A DNA stretch of 64,000 bases, taken from the NCBI RefSeq assembly GCF_003019675.1, contig NZ_CP028105.1:1628282-1692281 (forward strand), read 5' to 3'. The notes beneath the pieces are model-generated. The model searched no databases and was not told the origin of the DNA. It saw only the letters and a program-made list of their open reading frames with translations. The translations under genes were made by a program, and so were the position numbers. This DNA comes from Fusobacterium ulcerans. GTDB taxonomy: Bacteria > Fusobacteriota > Fusobacteriia > Fusobacteriales > Fusobacteriaceae. Positions 8,727-17,020 of the stretch are shown one piece after another (position 1 is the first letter of the stretch; each line of letters starts with the position of its first letter).

Positions 8727-8764
8727 GTAGAAGAGTTTTAAAATTTGGATAGGGTGTGGTTTGT

Positions 8765-9559
8765 ATGAAAAAATTAAAAAGTGATAGTCCAATCCCTCTT
8801 TATTATCAGCTCAGAGAAATCATAAGAGATAAAATAATGAATGAAGATTGGGGATATGGAACAGAGATACCTTCAGAATTGAAGCTTTGTGATGAGTTTA
8901 ATTTATGCAGAGCCACAGTAAAACAGGCAATGGATGGTCTTGTAAATGAGGGACTTATTGTAAGGAAAAAAGGAAAAGGATCTTTTGTAGTCTATCAAAA
9001 GATTACAGAAAATTTTCTGCTAGAACCAGCTTTTAGCAAAAAAAGTGGAGAAGCAGGATTGAATGATTACTCAACAGTGATTTTTTCAGATTTTACAGAA
9101 ACAGACAGAAGAATGCAAAAAGTATTGGAGCTAGAAGAGAATGGAGAAGTGTATCAAATAGAGAGGCTTCATTATATAGATGGAAAACCAGTTCTTTTAG
9201 ATACACACTATATCAATCCTAAATGGGCAGGAAATATTTCAAAGGAAGATATTAGAGAAATAGCTGTATATAAATATATTGAAAATACCTATGAAAAAAG
9301 TTTTACTAATTATAAAATAGGAGTACAGGCAATAATGCTTGATCAATATGAAAAAGAGCAGCTTGATTTTCCAGAAATTCCCACAGGGATGGTAGTAGAA
9401 TGTCTGTCATTTATAGGAAAAGAGCCTGTGGTATTCAACAGGAGAACTTACAGAGGAGATAGATGTGATCTTTGTTTAGAATTCATAGCTGTTAATCAAA
9501 AAATGGAAGTTGTCAATTCAGAGATTTCTATTGAAGAGAGAAATGGAAAACGTCATTAA
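8765..9559 (+). CDS. GntR-family regulator, HutC subfamily (UTRA effector domain)
   Basis: The 264-residue protein begins with the GntR winged helix (SPIPLYYQLREIIRDKI, then LCDEFNLCRATVKQAMDGL and GLIVRKKGKGSFV, about residues 6-77). A UTRA-type ligand domain follows (about 95-245), including VYQIERLHYIDGKPVLLDTHYI. It is expected to bind the palindrome at 8644-8665 as a dimer and to be released by a metabolite. A GTG at 8756 is also possible, but it overlaps the AGGGTG ribosome-binding site, so the ATG at 8765 is chosen. The two genes downstream suggest that an amino acid or dicarboxylate, or a product of it, is the signal. Confidence 0.9.
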   Translation: MKKLKSDSPIPLYYQLREIIRDKIMNEDWGYGTEIPSELKLCDEFNLCRATVKQAMDGLVNEGLIVRKKGKGSFVVYQKITENFLLEPAFSKKSGEAGLNDYSTVIFSDFTETDRRMQKVLELEENGEVYQIERLHYIDGKPVLLDTHYINPKWAGNISKEDIREIAVYKYIENTYEKSFTNYKIGVQAIMLDQYEKEQLDFPEIPTGMVVECLSFIGKEPVVFNRRTYRGDRCDLCLEFIAVNQKMEVVNSEISIEERNGKRH

Positions 9560-9642
9560 AACCTTCATCAAGTATTGAGCTGCAAAATAGTCAAGAATAG
9601 CGATCTTTCATATACTACTTAATTTTAAGTGGGGGGATTATT

Positions 9643-10866
9643 ATGTTAAAGAAGAAGATAGGATTAGCCAATAAGATATTGATTGGTATGATTCTGGGGG
9701 CAATAGCTGGACTTGTTATAGGACCAAAAATAACGGCAATAGCTGTCGTTGGGGATGTATTTTTAAGACTTCTTAGAATGTCAGTTGTACCTCTTATTTT
9801 TGCCAATGTTGTTTTGGCAGTAGCAGGTATGGGAGATTTGAGACGTCTTGGGAAGATTGGAGTTAAACTTGTTGTTATCTTTTTAGCTACAACATTTGTT
9901 GCAGCAGGTATTGGATTGTTTTCTGCTCTTGTGATAAAACCAGGGGTAGGATTTGTAATGACAGATGTCAGTGGAATAGTTGAAAAAGGGGCTCCTACTG
10001 TAAGCAGTGTTATTTTAGGATTTTTCCCTGTTAATATAATGCAGTCATTCTCAGAAGGAAATATGCTTCAGATAATTACTTTTGCTATATTTTCTGGTAT
10101 AGCTATCCTTCTATTAAAAGAAGAGGACAAAAAACGTGTGTTGGATATGTTTGGAACTCTTTCTCGTTTCATAATGATGATATTGAAATTTGTTATGGGA
10201 TTTACTCCATATGGGGTTTTTGCTCTTATGGCAACAACAACAGGAAAATATGGAACAGACATATTAGGACCTTTAGGAAAGTTTATAATTACTATTTACA
10301 TTGGATTAATGATACATGCTTTTGTAGTTTATGGTGGAATGTATCTGGCAGCTTCTGGAAAGAGCCCGATTGCGTTCTATAAGAAAATAGCTCCAGTATG
10401 GACTACAAGTTTTGCTACATGTAGTACTGCTGCAACTATACCAGTATCTATAAAAGTTTGTGAAGATGAATTGAAATTGAAAAAAGATATAGCTGGATTT
10501 ACTATTCCAGTAGGGGCAACAATGAATATGGATGGAAATGGACTTTGGTATGGAGTAGTAGCAGTATTTGTATCACAGGTACTGGGAATTGAAATGTCTT
10601 TATATCAAATGTTTATAGCTGTATTTACAGGAGTATTGATGACTTTAGGAAGTCCTGGTATCCCTGGTGGAATATTTGTTGCAACAACTATTTTCCTTAC
10701 AACTTTAGGGCTACCGATAGAATTTGTAGGTCTTTTAGGTGGAATCTTCCGTATAATGGATATGGGAATCACTACTGTAAATGTAGTGGGATCTGTAGTC
10801 GTAGCTGCTGTATTAGATGCTGGTGAAAGAAAGAATGAGCAGAGAGAAGCAGTTGAGGAGGGATAA
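9643..10866 (+). CDS. Dicarboxylate/amino acid:cation symporter (DAACS/SDF family)
   Basis: The 407-residue protein has the glutamate-transporter plan. N-terminal helices come first, followed by a serine/small-residue re-entrant loop represented by FATCSTAATIPVSIKVCED (about 267-285), then the NMDGNGLWYG cation-binding motif near 297-306, and a second re-entrant loop with LGSPGIPGGI. Members import glutamate, aspartate, other amino acids or C4-dicarboxylates with Na+ or H+. The next gene starts 2 bp after this one, so uptake of an acidic amino acid that is then handled by a racemase-like enzyme is plausible. Between the GntR gene and this ATG lies a small ACTTAA/TTAAGT hairpin directly before the GGGGGG ribosome-binding site. 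Confidence 0.9.
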   Translation: MLKKKIGLANKILIGMILGAIAGLVIGPKITAIAVVGDVFLRLLRMSVVPLIFANVVLAVAGMGDLRRLGKIGVKLVVIFLATTFVAAGIGLFSALVIKPGVGFVMTDVSGIVEKGAPTVSSVILGFFPVNIMQSFSEGNMLQIITFAIFSGIAILLLKEEDKKRVLDMFGTLSRFIMMILKFVMGFTPYGVFALMATTTGKYGTDILGPLGKFIITIYIGLMIHAFVVYGGMYLAASGKSPIAFYKKIAPVWTTSFATCSTAATIPVSIKVCEDELKLKKDIAGFTIPVGATMNMDGNGLWYGVVAVFVSQVLGIEMSLYQMFIAVFTGVLMTLGSPGIPGGIFVATTIFLTTLGLPIEFVGLLGGIFRIMDMGITTVNVVGSVVVAAVLDAGERKNEQREAVEEG

Positions 10867-10868
10867 TA

Positions 10869-11576
10869 ATGAAAGAAAAAGTTGTGGGAATATTAGGTGG
10901 AATGGGACCAGAAGCTACTATAGATCTTTTTGCCAAAATAGTAGAAGAAACACATGCAAAATGTGATGAAGATCACTTGAGAATAATAGTGGACAATAAT
11001 CCAAAAATGCCAAGCAGACAGGATGCAATCATGAAAGGGACAGAAAGTCCAGTTGCAGCTATGGTTGCTACAGCAGAAAATTTAAAAAAAGCGGGGGCTG
11101 ACTTTATAATAATTGGGGCAAATACAGCACATTATTTTTATGACGAAGTTGCCAGTCAAGTAGATATACCATTTTTACATATAATAGATGAAGCAGTAAA
11201 AGAGATGATGCGTCAGGTGCCAGGAATAAAAAAAGTGGGGGTAATGGCAACTAATGCAGCTGTGAAGATTAAATTATATGATAAATGCTGTGCAAAGTTT
11301 GGAATAGAAGTAATAGCTGCAAAAGAGGAAGTACAGAATAAAGTACATGATACTATATTCGACTTTAAATACAATGGGGTTACAGAAAAAAATGTAAAAG
11401 ATGCCACAGATTGTGCTGAATATTTTATAGAAAATGGAGCAGAGGCATTAATAATGGGATGCACAGAAATCCCAATTATATTAAAAGGAAAAAGTTTTAC
11501 AGTGCCTCTTATAGATCCTAATGATATTATAGGAAAAGTGGCAGTAGCTTACGCAAAAAATAAATATGAATTATAA
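10869..11576 (+). CDS. Aspartate/glutamate racemase-family protein with one catalytic Cys replaced
   Basis: The 235-residue protein has the Asp/Glu racemase fold: VGILGGMGPEATIDLF at the N-terminus, a NPKMPSRQDAI substrate loop, ANTAHYFYDE at 84-93, and MGCTEIPIIL at about 196-205. These racemases normally use two cysteines, the first in a CNTAH motif and the second in GCTE. Here Cys198 is present, but the first position is Ala84. This could alter the reaction to a one-base or epimerase-like activity, or leave the protein catalytically weak. It is the last gene of the GntR-symporter operon. An exact substrate is not assigned. Confidence 0.82.
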   Translation: MKEKVVGILGGMGPEATIDLFAKIVEETHAKCDEDHLRIIVDNNPKMPSRQDAIMKGTESPVAAMVATAENLKKAGADFIIIGANTAHYFYDEVASQVDIPFLHIIDEAVKEMMRQVPGIKKVGVMATNAAVKIKLYDKCCAKFGIEVIAAKEEVQNKVHDTIFDFKYNGVTEKNVKDATDCAEYFIENGAEALIMGCTEIPIILKGKSFTVPLIDPNDIIGKVAVAYAKNKYEL

Positions 11577-11616
11577 AAACAAGGTGGTTCAAAGCAATTT
11601 TGAGCCACCTTGTTTT
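11576..11616. terminator. Bidirectional terminator hairpin, copy 1 of a 41-bp exact repeat
   Basis: AAAACAAGGTGGTTCAAA pairs with TTTTGAGCCACCTTGTTTT across a GCAA-containing loop, giving an 18-bp stem with one G:U. It separates the convergent racemase and sigma-54 activator genes. The same 41 bases recur at 16980-17020. Confidence 0.85.
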
Positions 11617-11618
11617 AA

Positions 11619-13175
11619 TTATTCAAGGCCAAGTTCTTTGAGTTTTCGATAAAAAGTTCTTCTGCTTAGTTTAAGAAGTTCAATAGCTTTTGATCTGTTA
11701 TTGTTACATTTATTTAAAGCATCTATAAAAATGTCATGTTCATATTGTGTTACAGCATCTTTTAGAGAGGTATAATTTTTTATGAAATGATTATTAGTAG
11801 TTAAATTTTGAATATTTTCTTTTTCTTGTATAGATGCAGGAATATCTGTTAAAAGTATTGTGGAAGAATTGCAAAGGATAACTGCATATTCTATTGCATT
11901 TTTTAATTCCCTTATATTACCAGGCCATTTATAATTATAAAAATAATTATAAACATCAGAAGAGAAAATAAGAGATTTCCCATATTTTTTATTAAATTTT
12001 GAAAGGAAAAAATTAGATAATAAAATTATGTCATGTTTTCTATTTCTTAAAGGTGGAATATCAAGAGTTATGACATTTAAACGATAATAAAGATCTCTTC
12101 TAAATAATTTTTTTTCAATAAGCTCTTCAAGATTTTGGTTAGTTGCTGCAATTATTCTCACATTAATAGCAATATTTTTAGAACTTCCTATTTTTTCAAT
12201 TTCTCCTTCTTGAAGTACTCTTAAAAGTTTTGCCTGCATAGATAGAGGGGTGTCGCCTATTTCATCTAAGAAAATAGTCCCTCCTTCTGCTAATTGGAAT
12301 TTTCCAAGTTTTCCACCTTTTTTAGCTCCAGTAAAGCTGCCGTCTTCATATCCAAATAATTCGCTTTCAATAAGGTTTTCAGGTATAGCAGCACAATTTA
12401 CAGTGATAAAAGGTTTATTATTTCTAAGACTATTTTTATAAATGAAATTTGTTAAAATTTCCTTACCAGAACCATTTTCTCCTCTTATGAGAACTACTGC
12501 ATCAGTTTTTGCAACAGATAATGCTTTTGATATCAAATTTGAAAATTCAGGAGTATCACCTATAAAGTCAGAATTTTTAAGTTCTTGCTGTTCTTTTATC
12601 TGATTGCTAAATCCTTCTGCAACATCAGATATTCTTTTAACTTCATCATTTAATTGTGTGATTTCAGTAATATCTTTAAATATAGAAAAAGCTCCTTCAA
12701 AACTACCATTATTAAACAGAGGGAAAAGACGGATAGATACATATTTTTTTAAAGACTTAATATAAGTTTTTTCCTTTGAAACTGCTTTTTTTGTTTTTAA
12801 AACTTTTATTAATTCTGTATCTTGTTCAATGTTTTGGATATATTTTCCAATGATTTTTCTTTGAGGAATATTAAGGATTTGACTATATCTTGAGTTGGTA
12901 TAAAAAATTCTTCCAGTGGTGTCTATAATAATAACTGCTTCTTCAATATTGTCTAAAATATTAAAAAATTTTATATTTTTAAATTTTTCTATTAAGAAAA
13001 TAAGAAATTCATTTTTAATTTTTCCAACAATATCATTGTTTTGATTTATAATATAAGTATATTCATCCTTTAGATTAATATCTTCAATTGATAATAAAGA
13101 AACCAGAGTTTCTTCATTGAGATATTTTCCTAAGGATTTTTCAAAATGGGGAGACATGATATCAGATAATTTCAT
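11619..13175 (-). CDS. Sigma-54-dependent transcriptional activator with PAS domain
   Basis: The 518-residue protein has a PAS sensor at about 70-190 (NIEEAVIIIDTTGRIFYTN). A AAA+ domain follows with Walker A GENGSGKE at 232-239, the sigma-54 contact loop GSFTGA at 279-284, Walker B IFLDEIGD at 301-308 and the arginine-finger region RRDLYYRLNV near 359-368. The Fis-type helix-turn-helix lies at about 487-518. The contact loop has Ser in place of the usual Ala (GAFTGA). The ATG at 13175 follows AAGGAGG, although the frame is open further upstream. The gene is divergent from the HMG-CoA reductase operon, which has a -24/-12 promoter, so it is the likely activator of that operon. The PAS ligand is unknown. 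Confidence 0.93.
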   Translation of the reverse strand: MKLSDIMSPHFEKSLGKYLNEETLVSLLSIEDINLKDEYTYIINQNNDIVGKIKNEFLIFLIEKFKNIKFFNILDNIEEAVIIIDTTGRIFYTNSRYSQILNIPQRKIIGKYIQNIEQDTELIKVLKTKKAVSKEKTYIKSLKKYVSIRLFPLFNNGSFEGAFSIFKDITEITQLNDEVKRISDVAEGFSNQIKEQQELKNSDFIGDTPEFSNLISKALSVAKTDAVVLIRGENGSGKEILTNFIYKNSLRNNKPFITVNCAAIPENLIESELFGYEDGSFTGAKKGGKLGKFQLAEGGTIFLDEIGDTPLSMQAKLLRVLQEGEIEKIGSSKNIAINVRIIAATNQNLEELIEKKLFRRDLYYRLNVITLDIPPLRNRKHDIILLSNFFLSKFNKKYGKSLIFSSDVYNYFYNYKWPGNIRELKNAIEYAVILCNSSTILLTDIPASIQEKENIQNLTTNNHFIKNYTSLKDAVTQYEHDIFIDALNKCNNNRSKAIELLKLSRRTFYRKLKELGLE

Positions 13176-13219
13176 AAGATGAACCTCCTTAATAAGAATA
13201 AAATGTAGCGAAAATGATA

Positions 13220-13231
13220 TAGTATATACTA
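13220..13231. promoter_or_regulatory. Candidate upstream activating sequence for the sigma-54 activator
   Basis: TAGTATATACTA is a perfect 12-bp palindrome centred about 98 bp upstream of the -24 element. This is the distance expected for an enhancer-binding protein site. It lies in the intergenic space between the divergent activator and its presumed target operon. Confidence 0.45.
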
Positions 13232-13322
13232 AATGATACCATATTTTTTTATAAAGTGCCATTAAGTATACAATAAAATAAAGAAATATATTAAAAGCTG
13301 AAAAAAAGCCTATTTATAGCAA

Positions 13323-13338
13323 TGGCATTAGTTTTGCT
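13323..13338 (+). promoter_or_regulatory. Sigma-54 (-24/-12) promoter
   Basis: TGGCATTAGTTTTGCT matches the sigma-54 consensus TGGCAC-N5-TTGC, with GG and GC at the exact required 12-nt phase. It sits about 50 bp upstream of the HMG-CoA reductase start. No comparable sigma-70 promoter is obvious in the same interval. Confidence 0.78.
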
Positions 13339-13384
13339 TATATAAAAGGCAGAGGCAATAAAAAATAATTAAGGGAGTGAGGAT

Positions 13385-14647
13385 ATGAAACAAAGTAGTT
13401 ATTCAGGATTTTTTAAACTATCACCAGAGGAAAGATTAAGAGAAGTGACAGAATTTTGTAATTTAACATCAGAAGAGCAAGAAATATTAAAAGATCCAAA
13501 TTGCTTGGATATGGATAAGGCTGATCATATGATAGAAAATGTAATTGGACGTTTTGCTCTTCCATTGGGAGTGGGACTTAATTTCAAGATAAATGAAAAA
13601 GATTATCTTATACCTATGGTAAGTGAAGAACCATCAGTAGTTGCAGCAGCAAGTAATGCAGCAAAGATAATAAGAGAAAGCGGAGGTTTTACAACAAGCA
13701 ACACAGGTTCTGTTATGATAGCTCAAATTCAGATTACAGATGTAGCAGATCCTCATTTTGCAAAAATTGTCATAGAAGAAAATAAAGAAAAAATAAAAAC
13801 TTTATGTAATGAGAAGGATCCTATTCTTGTAAAGTTTGGTGGAGGAATGGAAGATTTAGAAGTTCGTATTATAGAGAGCATAATAGGAAAAATGGTAATT
13901 GTTCATCTTAAAGTTAATACTTTAGATGCTATGGGAGCTAATGCAGTAAATACCATGGCAGAGGCTGTGTCTCCTTTATTGGAAGAGTTGACAGGAGGAA
14001 GAGCTTTTCTAAGAATATTATCTAATCTGGCCATTCACCGTTTGGCAAGAGCGAGAGTAAAGATAAAAAAAGAGACTATTGGAGAAGATATTGTAGATAA
14101 AATAATAACAGCATATGCTTTTGCAGAAGCAGATCCATTTAGAGCAGTAACTCATAATAAAGGAATAATGAATGGAATAATTCCAGTAGTTTTAGCAACT
14201 GGAAATGATACAAGAGCTATTGAGTCAGGAGCACATGCATATGCTTCTATAACAGGAAGATATACATCTCTGACAACTTGGGAAAAGGATAAAAATGGTG
14301 ATTTAGTAGGAACAATAGAACTTCCTATGGCTGTTGGATTAGTAGGGGGAGCAACAAAAATACATCCTACTGCAAGAGTAGCAGTAAAAATGCTAGGAGT
14401 AAAGTCAGCAGCTGAACTTGGAGAAATAATAGCCAGTGTAGGGCTAGCAAATAACTTTGCTGCAATAAAGGCATTAGCTACTGAAGGAATTCAAAGAGGA
14501 CATATGTCACTTCATGCAAGAAACTTGGCAACAGTGGCAGGAGCTAAGGGAGAGGCTTTAGAATCAATAGTAGTCCAAATGATAAAAGAAAAAAATGTTC
14601 GCTTAGAATATGCACAGGAATTGTTGAAAAAATTTAATTCAAAATAA
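13385..14647 (+). CDS. mvaA: Hydroxymethylglutaryl-CoA reductase, class II (degradative type)
   Basis: The 420-residue protein carries class II HMG-CoA reductase landmarks: ENVIGRFALPLGVG (51-64), SEEPSVVAAAS with the catalytic Glu at about 82, THNKGIMNG with Lys259, TGNDTRAIESGAHAYA with Asp275, and RGHMSLHARNLA with His373. By family knowledge class II enzymes interconvert mevalonate, CoA and NAD(P)+ with HMG-CoA. In Pseudomonas mevalonii the homologue works in the mevalonate-degrading direction. The neighbouring permease and HMG-CoA-lyase-like gene, plus sigma-54 control, favour degradation here. Mevalonate synthesis for isoprenoids is unlikely, since no other mevalonate-pathway gene is present and a DXS-like gene lies elsewhere in the window. 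All four catalytic residues are intact. Confidence 0.93.
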   Translation: MKQSSYSGFFKLSPEERLREVTEFCNLTSEEQEILKDPNCLDMDKADHMIENVIGRFALPLGVGLNFKINEKDYLIPMVSEEPSVVAAASNAAKIIRESGGFTTSNTGSVMIAQIQITDVADPHFAKIVIEENKEKIKTLCNEKDPILVKFGGGMEDLEVRIIESIIGKMVIVHLKVNTLDAMGANAVNTMAEAVSPLLEELTGGRAFLRILSNLAIHRLARARVKIKKETIGEDIVDKIITAYAFAEADPFRAVTHNKGIMNGIIPVVLATGNDTRAIESGAHAYASITGRYTSLTTWEKDKNGDLVGTIELPMAVGLVGGATKIHPTARVAVKMLGVKSAAELGEIIASVGLANNFAAIKALATEGIQRGHMSLHARNLATVAGAKGEALESIVVQMIKEKNVRLEYAQELLKKFNSK

Positions 14648-14670
14648 ATTTCAATGAGGGGAGGAATTAA

Positions 14671-15960
14671 ATGGTAGCAATTATAGTTTCATTAATTCTT
14701 TTGATTTTTCTGTCTTTTAAGAAAATAAATATAGTAGTAGTTGGAATATTGGCAGCAGCAGTGATGGCATTATTGTCAGGGCAACCAGTACTTACTGCCA
14801 TCAAAGATTCATATATGATGGGGGCAGCTGGGTTTGTTCAAAACAACTTTTTAATATTTTTCTTCAGTGTGCTTTTTGGGAAAGTGATGGAAGAAACAGG
14901 ATCAGCAGCTTCTATAGCAAAATTTCTAGCAGAAAAATTAGGAGAGAAATATGCAATTTTAGGAGTGATATTTGCTGGAGCAGTTTTAGTATATGGAGGA
15001 GTGACTACTCTTGTGGTAGTATTTAGTCTGTATCCAATAGCACTATCATTGTTTAAAAAAGCGAATCTTCCAAGATATTTGCTTCCAGGTGCAATAGCAG
15101 GAGGATGCTTCACATTTGCATGTGCAAATTTTCCAGGGACACCTAATTTAGTAAATGTTATTCCTATACAATATCTTGGAACTACAACAATGGCGGCTCC
15201 AGTAGTTGGAATAGCAGCAGGACTTGTAGTTATGTTGCTGGTATGTGTATTTTTTCTAAGAGAAGCAAAAAAGGCTAAACTTAGAGGAGATATTTTTATA
15301 GATGATGAAGACACAATAAAGAGTCTTGCAAAAGTTAATTCTATTGAGAAACTTCCTAGTCCTTTTGTATCAGTATTGCCAATAATTCTGATACTGGTAG
15401 TTTTAAATATTTTAAAACAGGATGTAATACTTGCAATGTTATGTGGAATAATATTATGTGTAATACTGTTCTTTAAAAATCTTGGAAATATATTGGATAT
15501 ATTTAATTATTCTTCAAAAAATGCAGCTATAGCTATTATAAATACAGCAGTAGTAGTAGGATTTGGTGCTGTTGTAAAAAATTCATCAGGATTTCAGCAA
15601 TTATTTGATTTTAGTACAAATTTAAAGGGATCACCTCTTGTTTCTTTTGGAATAATGACAACTGTACTGGCAGGTGCATGTGGCTCAGGCTCAGGAGGAT
15701 TGGGAATAGCTTTAGAAGCTATGGCTTCTAGGTATCTGGCATTAGGATTGAGTCCTGAAATACTTCATAGAGTAGGATCAGCAGCATCTGTAGGATTGGA
15801 TAGCCTTCCTCATAATGGAGCTGTGATAACACTTTTGACAATAAGCGGAACAACTCACAAGGAAGCATATAAATATATATTTTTTCCTACTGTAGTATGT
15901 ACTTTGGCTGGACTAGCAGTAAGTATTTTATTAGGAACAATTTTATATCCTGTTTTATAA
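14671..15960 (+). CDS. GntP-like permease, candidate mevalonate importer
   Basis: The 429-residue protein is almost entirely hydrophobic, with about 12 membrane segments. It has the GntP-family signatures of an early SGQPVLTAI/ SYMMGAAGF region, NFPGTPNLVNVIP at about 151-163, and GACGSGSGGLGIALE and HNGAVITLL in the C-terminal half. GntP and related ion-transporter-superfamily carriers import gluconate and other hydroxy acids with protons. Its place between HMG-CoA reductase and HMG-CoA-lyase-like genes, with 23 and 34 bp gaps, makes mevalonate or another branched hydroxy acid the probable cargo. That is inference; no transport specificity can be read from sequence. Confidence 0.82.
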   Translation: MVAIIVSLILLIFLSFKKINIVVVGILAAAVMALLSGQPVLTAIKDSYMMGAAGFVQNNFLIFFFSVLFGKVMEETGSAASIAKFLAEKLGEKYAILGVIFAGAVLVYGGVTTLVVVFSLYPIALSLFKKANLPRYLLPGAIAGGCFTFACANFPGTPNLVNVIPIQYLGTTTMAAPVVGIAAGLVVMLLVCVFFLREAKKAKLRGDIFIDDEDTIKSLAKVNSIEKLPSPFVSVLPIILILVVLNILKQDVILAMLCGIILCVILFFKNLGNILDIFNYSSKNAAIAIINTAVVVGFGAVVKNSSGFQQLFDFSTNLKGSPLVSFGIMTTVLAGACGSGSGGLGIALEAMASRYLALGLSPEILHRVGSAASVGLDSLPHNGAVITLLTISGTTHKEAYKYIFFPTVVCTLAGLAVSILLGTILYPVL

Positions 15961-15994
15961 AAGAAAAAATGAAATATTTAAAAAGGAGAAAGGG

Positions 15995-16978
15995 ATGAAA
16001 ATTGAATTACCAAAAAAAATAAATATAATAGATATTACCATGCGTGATGGACTGCAAAATGAAGAAAAGTTTTTACCATTAGAAGGAAAACTTCATATAG
16101 CAGAAAAATTAATAGATGCTGGAGTGAAAAAAATAGAAGTAGGTTCAATGAGTCATGTAAAGTATGTACCTCAATTTAGAGATATAGATGATTTAATGAG
16201 AGCACTTCCTAAAAGAGATGATGTGGAATATACTGTTTTGGCTTTAAATAAAAAAGCTGTGGAAAGAGTGGTTAAACTTTTAGAAGAGGGAATAAAAATA
16301 GATAGAGTATTAACTGGGCAGCTAGCTACGAGCGAAGCTTATGCTAAAAAAAATATGAATAGGACACATGAAGAACTTTTTTTAGAAGCAGAAAAAAATG
16401 TAAAACTTTTACATGATGCTGGGATAAAAAAAGTAGTTGGAAATATAGGAACAATATTTGGATGCCCTATTCAAGGAGAAGTACCAATAGAAAAAGCTTA
16501 TGAATTTGCAGATAGGATGTTCCAAATAGGATTTGATGAAATAGAGCATTCAGATCCTGATGGAAAAGCTACTCCAAAAGATATTCTTGAATATTTTAGT
16601 GTAGTTCTTGAAAAATATCCAGATCCTTCAAAACATTCTTTTCATATACATGATATAAGAGGAACAGGAATAGCAGGATATTATGCAGCAATGATGGCTG
16701 GAATAATAAATTTTGACTGTACAATAGGTGGAATAGGAGGACAGGTAGCTAATTTCATGGATGGATTACCTATCAAAGGAACAGGGGAATACTATTTTGA
16801 ATCTAGAAGAACAGGATTAGTGAGCACAGAAGATTTTACAACAATGGTGAATGAGATGGGAATAGAAACAGGGATAGATCATAAAAAATTATACAAACTA
16901 GGATTAGAACTTGAAAAAATGTTAGGGAGAGAGCTACATTCCTTTACAAGTTCAGTAAAAAATAATTCTGCATTATAA
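15995..16978 (+). CDS. mvaB: HMG-CoA lyase-like enzyme (HMGL/DRE-TIM superfamily) with atypical active-site loop
   Basis: The 327-residue protein has the DRE-TIM barrel plan: ITMRDGLQNE with Arg17/Asp18, KIEVGSMSHVKYVPQF (46-61), VVGNIGTIFGCP, SDPDGKATP, and the metal pair His217/His219 in HSFHIHD. It would cleave HMG-CoA to acetyl-CoA and acetoacetate, completing mevalonate breakdown. However, the mobile loop that in known lyases reads GG-C-P-(F/Y)-A carries no cysteine. It reads GGIGGQVANFMDGLPIKG (245-262) and is about ten residues longer. The exact reaction therefore needs care; a related aldolase/lyase activity is possible. It is the last gene before a strong terminator. Confidence 0.78.
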   Translation: MKIELPKKINIIDITMRDGLQNEEKFLPLEGKLHIAEKLIDAGVKKIEVGSMSHVKYVPQFRDIDDLMRALPKRDDVEYTVLALNKKAVERVVKLLEEGIKIDRVLTGQLATSEAYAKKNMNRTHEELFLEAEKNVKLLHDAGIKKVVGNIGTIFGCPIQGEVPIEKAYEFADRMFQIGFDEIEHSDPDGKATPKDILEYFSVVLEKYPDPSKHSFHIHDIRGTGIAGYYAAMMAGIINFDCTIGGIGGQVANFMDGLPIKGTGEYYFESRRTGLVSTEDFTTMVNEMGIETGIDHKKLYKLGLELEKMLGRELHSFTSSVKNNSAL

Positions 16979-16979
16979 A

Positions 16980-17020
16980 AAAACAAGGTGGTTCAAAGCA
17001 ATTTTGAGCCACCTTGTTTT
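16980..17020. terminator. Bidirectional terminator hairpin, copy 2 of the 41-bp exact repeat
   Basis: The 41 bases are identical to those at 11576-11616 and again lie between convergent genes (the lyase-like gene and the DUF1653-like gene), with T-rich flanks usable on either strand. Confidence 0.85.

Follow-up and report, generated by a model that had tools for sequence, protein, structure and literature searches.

The window analysed here is a 64-kb stretch of the Fusobacterium ulcerans genome, which comprises 3.54 Mb in a single contig. The locus of interest in the window contains the following features:

11575..11616, no strand assigned: left member of an exact pair of 42-bp direct repeats, a terminator hairpin bounding the cassette
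11619..13262, minus strand: sigma-54-dependent activator with PAS, AAA+ and Fis-type HTH domains (PF00158, PF25601, PF02954 and PAS models)
13323..13338, plus strand: -24/-12 promoter-like site TGGCATTAGTTTTGCT (pattern TGGCAY-N5-TTGCW), located 46 bp 5' of the HMGR start codon
13385..14647, plus strand: class II HMG-CoA reductase (HMGR), degradative type (TIGR00532; solved relatives 6dio, 6p7k and 1qax)
14671..15960, plus strand: GntP-like carrier, the proposed mevalonate importer (PF02447/PF03600; orthologues adjoin HMGR in loci L076 and L077; predicted Ion Transporter (IT) superfamily fold)
15995..16978, plus strand: HMG-CoA-lyase-family enzyme of a divergent subfamily with an altered catalytic loop (above the PF00682 cut-off, below that of PRK05692)
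16979..17020, no strand assigned: right member of this exact pair of 42-bp direct repeats, a terminator hairpin

The carrier gene is an open frame of 429 aa preceded by the ribosome-binding site GGGGAGG; it starts 23 bp 3' of the HMGR gene and ends 34 bp 5' of the lyase gene, and a purine-rich ribosome-binding site lies before each of these three genes. In Pfam, the carrier matched PF02447 (GntP_permease) with 43.4 bits (cut-off 22.5) over profile positions 4-237 of 440, as well as PF03600 (CitMHS) with 33.8 bits (cut-off 31.9). The first-pass annotation had placed an orphan GntP-like carrier between the two enzymes of the pathway, and this position and family are confirmed by the two short gaps and the PF02447 score. 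The homology to the GntP family is distant and covers the N-terminal half of the profile, consistent with the same general carrier type. By contrast, the carrier falls far below the model for gluconate:H+ symporters (TIGR00791; 29.7 bits, cut-off 292.75), a score that excludes its identity as a gluconate permease, and its operon context is mevalonate rather than gluconate. Among solved structures searched with the carrier sequence, nothing was detected up to E=1, and a scan of viral contigs with the carrier alignment found no relative.

To place HMGR, we compared it with models and with the gene content of related genomes. HMGR scored 472.7 bits against the 'degradative' model TIGR00532 (cut-off 259.95), and among its best solved relatives is 1qax, which we take to be the HMGR of Pseudomonas mevalonii. 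HMGR scored above cut-off in 32 of 98 Fusobacteriota genomes. In 28 of these 32 genomes, all of family f4, mevalonate kinase was also above cut-off and a Dxr match was absent; in the other four (the F. ulcerans genome, G050, G051 and G052), Dxr was above cut-off and mevalonate kinase was not. Kinase-type matches below cut-off were common (89 of the 98 genomes at E<=0.001); the best in the F. ulcerans genome reached 81.5 bits (cut-off 163.05), and the best match there to HMG-CoA synthase reached 31.6 bits (cut-off 360.35). Judged by gene content, HMGR use is biosynthetic in the 28 family f4 genomes and catabolic in the other four, in F. ulcerans because Dxr is present while mevalonate kinase and HMG-CoA synthase are below cut-off. 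Since the biosynthetic family f4 HMGRs also pass TIGR00532, this genome context is needed to call the degradative type.

The lyase-family enzyme scored 128 bits against PF00682 (cut-off 29) and 200.1 bits against the HMG-CoA lyase model PRK05692/NF004283 (cut-off 246). The catalytic-loop signature of HMG-CoA lyases, which includes a Cys, is GGCPY. The two solved lyases that we aligned have GGC in this loop, whereas the loop reads GGIGGQVAN in all 12 aligned sequences of the window type (the window lyase and 11 sister lyases), from which the loop Cys is absent; in this subfamily, a longer loop, GGIGGQVAN...KG.G.YYF, stands where canonical lyases have GGC. From its context, we infer that the enzyme acts as an HMG-CoA lyase, cleaving HMG-CoA to acetyl-CoA and acetoacetate; the route past HMG-CoA is a proposed one, as the enzyme falls below the HMG-CoA lyase cut-off and is without the loop Cys.

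To compare operons, HMGR relatives were sought in the genomes of 84,980 species; at least 525 stretches were confirmed, of which the best 80 were kept. Thirty sister HMGR loci (L068, L072-L098, L101 and L104) were taken from these best 80 of 525 plus L068. A window-type lyase (67-72% identical) is present in 11 of the 30, and a pair of genes encoding AtuA (PF07287) and AtuA_ferredoxin (PF23544) in 16. The two never co-occur in the 30 loci (Fisher p 6.7e-6, a value that ignores relatedness and cut contigs), and AtuA may, on this pattern, be an alternative HMG-CoA-cleaving enzyme. The loci L072, L089 and L095 have neither the window-type lyase nor the AtuA pair, only distant lyase relatives (32-43% identical). 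Separately, L096, L098, L101 and L104 encode aconitase X (PF04412), together with its swivel domain, near HMGR and AtuA; as judged from gene proximity, these genes possibly represent a dehydration branch for mevalonate.

The activator gene is divergent from the HMGR-carrier-lyase operon. The nearest NCBIfam model of its product is PrdR (469.7 bits, cut-off 795), and the protein is a probable mevalonate-responsive regulator. The pattern TGGCAY-N5-TTGCW has a single match in the 64 kb, the site before HMGR, with 0.11 expected and 11 of 100 shuffles having one somewhere; with N6 spacing, the same half-sites have no match in the window. A looser -24/-12 pattern, run without a shuffle control, gave 40 matches in the 30 sister loci on both strands. 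By this pattern, 12 of the 30 loci have a site no more than 250 bp 5' of an operon gene, and in 11 of these 12 the distance to where the match to that gene begins is 62-100 bp; the remaining 18 loci have no such site.

The four genes form a 5.4-kb cassette (11617-16978) between the two exact 42-bp copies. In the close relatives G026, G027 and G028, the flanking genes are kept and the cassette is absent; at the insertion site, a similar hairpin occurs once in each of G026 and G027, and G028 has there a 496-aa frame that we read as an IS transposase. Because the cassette is absent from these relatives and bounded by the 42-bp copies, the operon is an accessory insertion, for which gain by the F. 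ulcerans lineage is the simplest reading. Next to the cassette, the region 8756-11576 encodes a GntR-type regulator, an SDF-type symporter and a racemase with a match to the NCBIfam model for the cysteate racemase CuyB (240.1 bits, cut-off 190), a possible cluster for uptake and racemisation of cysteate or aspartate by these annotations.

Next, we examined the relatives of the carrier. Full-length homologues in the 97 other Fusobacteriota genomes reach 44-47% identity at best, which fits the earlier label 'orphan'; a single 150-residue segment reaches 52%. By contrast, nine Firmicutes genomes picked for HMGR contain two orthologues that are 74-75% identical; the other full-length matches listed in these nine genomes are at 41% or less, with single segments up to 48%. 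Thus, in the 97 Fusobacteriota and nine Firmicutes genomes, no full-length homologue falls between 47% and 74%. One orthologue is in Flavonifractor plautii (L077), where the gene order is activator, HMGR, carrier, lyase; this repetition of the window's arrangement argues that it is not due to chance. The other is in bacterium UBA4845 (L076), where the order is activator, AtuA pair, HMGR, carrier. The orthologue therefore adjoins a degradative-type HMGR in three of three cases (the window, L076 and L077). At E<=1e-110, neither 393 other genomes from the F. plautii order nor 390 others from the UBA4845 class yielded a further orthologue. In total, the orthologue group is rare and small and, in the three operons so far, always occurs with HMGR. 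Since the carrier in L076 accompanies HMGR even though AtuA replaces the lyase, it would track mevalonate rather than the lyase product.

To follow carriers across HMGR loci, 82 loci (the best 80 of 525 plus L068 and L069) were searched by tblastn for neighbours within 6.5 kb of HMGR. Relatives of the activator lie near HMGR in 24 of these 82 loci and are 42-51% identical, except in L098 (38%) and in L083, where the match is in two pieces (35% and 53%). Not included in the 24 are L069 (from G051), with a weaker activator match of 36%, and L081, L086, L091, L092, L096 and L101, in whose stretches, several of them cut short, the activator is absent. Among these loci from the best 80 of 525 plus two, 23 of the 24 with an activator have a carrier within 6.5 kb, and the carriers belong to six Pfam families: a TctA-like protein with a small membrane protein in 16 loci, a GntP-like carrier in two, a TRAP DctPQM set in two (L089 and L095), and single cases of an SSF carrier (L068), an AGCS carrier of the Na+:alanine type (L080) and an MFS carrier (L098). 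In L104, of which the left flank is cut and part of the frames were scanned, no carrier was recognised. The TctA-like, TRAP, SSF, AGCS and MFS carriers thus share the operon or neighbourhood of HMGR with the window carrier but are of other Pfam families; as the GntP-like carrier is predicted to share the IT fold with TRAP-M, the six families do not amount to six independent origins.

In the 58 loci without the activator, a TctA-like pair was found in three (L086, L091 and L092) and a DctM homologue before HMGR in seven (L122, L128, L133, L136, L139, L144 and L150), while 48 had none of the queried carriers, L130 having an MFS carrier by Pfam; this count is biased in that several queries were taken from the activator loci themselves. 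We therefore also counted without queries, scoring same-strand frames of at least 300 aa with at least eight hydrophobic segments. Such a frame lies within 6.5 kb of HMGR in 22 of the 24 activator loci compared with 17 of the 58 others (best 80 of 525 plus two), or in 15 of 16 compared with 11 of 29 when both flanks are complete; within 3 kb, the counts are 20 of 24 and 10 of 58.

The clearest exchange is within Flavonifractor. Between F. plautii (L077) and Flavonifractor sp. An306 (L079), HMGR is 93.1%, the lyase 88.1% and the activator 76.7% (over 416 residues) identical, whereas the gene between HMGR and the lyase encodes the GntP-like carrier in L077 and is replaced by genes for a small membrane protein and TctA in L079. 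The two carriers have an alignment score of 49, against a mean of 48.9 for shuffles, i.e. no similarity. A third Flavonifractor (L084), whose versions of these genes hardly differ from those of An306, has the TctA type. Within 200 genomes of the family of F. plautii, HMGR was found in two at E<=1e-150, and the second (G279, L159) has a TctA-like pair. When unlike carriers occupy one slot next to enzymes that stay the same, the simplest role for the slot is to take up what those enzymes consume and, as the first enzyme, HMGR, uses mevalonate, we read mevalonate as the substrate of the slot. By the same reasoning from gene order, the TctA-like pair near HMGR probably shares the task of the GntP-like carrier. 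The TctA-like pairs and the GntP-like carrier mostly adjoin HMGR or are separated from it by a few genes. The cases in L068, L080, L089, L095 and L098 are weaker because other catabolic genes lie between or around HMGR and the carrier, and these AGCS, SSF, TRAP and MFS carriers may serve other substrates. Two pairs of loci, L073/L074 and L079/L084, are near-copies.

The loci with DctM before HMGR have a distant HMGR (55-57% identical) and come from Microvirga, Hydrogenophaga, a Comamonadaceae and Caldimonas. In six of them (L122, L133, L136, L139, L144 and L150), TRAP-type genes of the sizes of DctP, DctQ and DctM lead directly into HMGR, with one fused QM-sized frame in L133 and a divergent regulator with GntR and aminotransferase domains (MocR-type) in L139; DctP was confirmed by Pfam in L122, L139 and L144. 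On the basis of this gene order, the TRAP systems of the six loci are candidate mevalonate importers. The binding protein of L139 has its best match in 2zzv, followed by constructs of the lactate-binding TTHA0766 (7e9y and 8zmz), and is thus of the hydroxy-acid type. The binding protein of the TRAP set in L089 matches 4o94, 4ovs and 4ngu, which are labelled dicarboxylate-type, and is uninformative on mevalonate. No solved binding protein with mevalonate is known to us.

An AlphaFold2 model of the carrier, built from a four-row alignment, is of middling confidence (pLDDT 71.6, pTM 0.68). Using Foldseek, 16 matches at E<=0.001 were obtained, to an integrative model of MleN, INDY/DASS, NaS1, Pho90, plastid dicarboxylate carriers and TRAP-M; the VIA/Foldseek relatives also include ArsB. 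VIA gave Z scores of about 20-27 over about 390-400 residues at 11-13% identity for the MleN model 9a59, Pho90, NaS1, AtDiT1 and LaINDY. Residues 155-174 and 376-380 of the model, about where the binding hairpins would sit, have a pLDDT below 50. The carrier is thus predicted, with a middling-confidence model, to belong to the IT superfamily and to be of the INDY/TRAP-M type. Members of this superfamily have a fold of two inverted repeats with re-entrant hairpins and work by an elevator mechanism. The predicted fold of the carrier resembles that of INDY/DASS, TRAP-M, AbgT, MleN and ArsB, and the substrate cannot be read from it.

The carrier could instead take up a broader or different range of small hydroxy or keto acids (3-hydroxybutyrate, acetoacetate or pantoate-like), with mevalonate at most a side substrate. 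The F. ulcerans genome has six PF02447 matches, of which the window carrier is a weak one, and two paralogues point to such a family: one (44% identical) lies near genes for LysR, CoA-transferase, MaoC-like, acyl-CoA dehydrogenase and Etf proteins, and another (31-32%) in a cluster with activator, ketopantoate-reductase-like, BKACE-like and MaoC-like genes, all named by sequence reading. Against this, HMGR and the lyase are the only enzymes of the operon, so that none is there to use another imported acid, and the orthologues are set apart from full-length paralogues by the gap between 47% and 74% and adjoin HMGR in every case; we consider this alternative unlikely. Clusters of related composition occur in more than one genome. 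A second activator with ketopantoate-reductase-like and GntP-like genes lies beside the mevalonate operon of F. plautii (L077:14922-19953), a comparable activator/ketopantoate-reductase-like/GntP-like cluster with BKACE-like and MaoC-like genes is present in the F. ulcerans genome (L071:4762-9954), and ketopantoate-reductase-like and BKACE-like genes, again named by sequence reading, flank an HMGR in L069 (G051).

A second alternative, which we regard as quite improbable, is that the carrier exports or exchanges the lyase product acetoacetate, alone or as a mevalonate/acetoacetate antiporter. No gene of the operon consumes acetoacetate, and carriers of the IT fold include exchangers; however, the carrier in L076 accompanies HMGR without a window-type lyase, and the operon has no other carrier to import mevalonate. 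Moreover, the genome encodes, outside the operon, a 3-oxoacid-type CoA-transferase subunit (TIGR02429, 235.1 bits; 218-aa open frame), so that acetoacetate need not leave the cell. Finally, although the HMGR reaction is reversible, a biosynthetic HMGR with a carrier exporting mevalonate is excluded by the kinase, Dxr and synthase pattern described above to the point of being scarcely credible, HMGR fitting the degradative model and neighbouring a member of a cleaving lyase family.

We know of no specificity motif for mevalonate, and the assignment of the carrier is therefore carried by context. The earlier proposal of a candidate mevalonate transporter is supported by the catabolic setting of HMGR, the orthologues beside HMGR, the swapped carriers and the INDY/TRAP-M-type model. 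Altogether, these observations make it likely, as far as genomic evidence goes, that the carrier imports mevalonate for breakdown by HMGR and the lyase. In the mechanism that we propose, mevalonate, or a product of it, would turn on the divergent sigma-54 activator, which would switch on HMGR, carrier and lyase as one operon. The carrier, as a secondary active transporter of the IT superfamily, would bring (R)-mevalonate into the cell, where the degradative HMGR would convert mevalonate, CoA and 2 NAD+ to HMG-CoA and 2 NADH, and the lyase would cleave HMG-CoA to acetyl-CoA and acetoacetate. Acetoacetate would be converted to acetoacetyl-CoA by the CoA-transferase encoded elsewhere and then to butyrate, with re-oxidation of the 2 NADH; by arithmetic, the net balance, C6H11O4- -> C4H7O2- (butyrate) + C2H3O2- (acetate) + H+, would be redox neutral. 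In this scheme, we infer the substrate, the direction of import, the stereochemistry, the coupling to H+ or Na+, the inducer and the fermentation balance.

The mvaAB operon is the mevalonate catabolic operon of P. mevalonii, and earlier studies dealt with how Pseudomonas sp. M/P. mevalonii transports and breaks down mevalonate. Like the window operon, mvaAB encodes HMGR and HMG-CoA lyase, which convert mevalonate to acetyl-CoA and acetoacetate, and the HMGRs are clearly homologous; unlike mvaAB, the window operon has a GntP-like carrier between the enzymes, a divergent sigma-54 activator and a lyase of a divergent subfamily. JEN1 is a lactate permease. In one study, yeast JEN1 was evolved into a mevalonate importer by a mevalonate-fed growth selection, and natural mevalonate uptake in S. 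cerevisiae was termed negligible (PMC12405511). The evolved JEN1 is an engineered yeast carrier; the same selection would suit the window carrier too. In the open-licence PMC papers searched, we found no mevalonate importer gene from bacteria, this evolved JEN1 being the nearest (PMC12405511).

More broadly, we lean slightly towards an anaerobic mevalonate-utilisation regulon in which one family of sigma-54 activators would control importers swapped among up to six Pfam families, the HMG-CoA-cleaving step would be swapped for the AtuA and AtuA-ferredoxin-like pair, mevalonate would be fermented by gut and sediment anaerobes with butyrate and acetate as products, and the carriers would be bacterial mevalonate importers that we did not find in print. 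If the assignment of the window carrier is correct, it would name a bacterial mevalonate importer, and the carrier exchanges would extend the list of candidates to other families, with the TctA-like pair foremost. It would also provide tools to feed mevalonate to engineered microbes, and would point to a mevalonate sink in anaerobic habitats.
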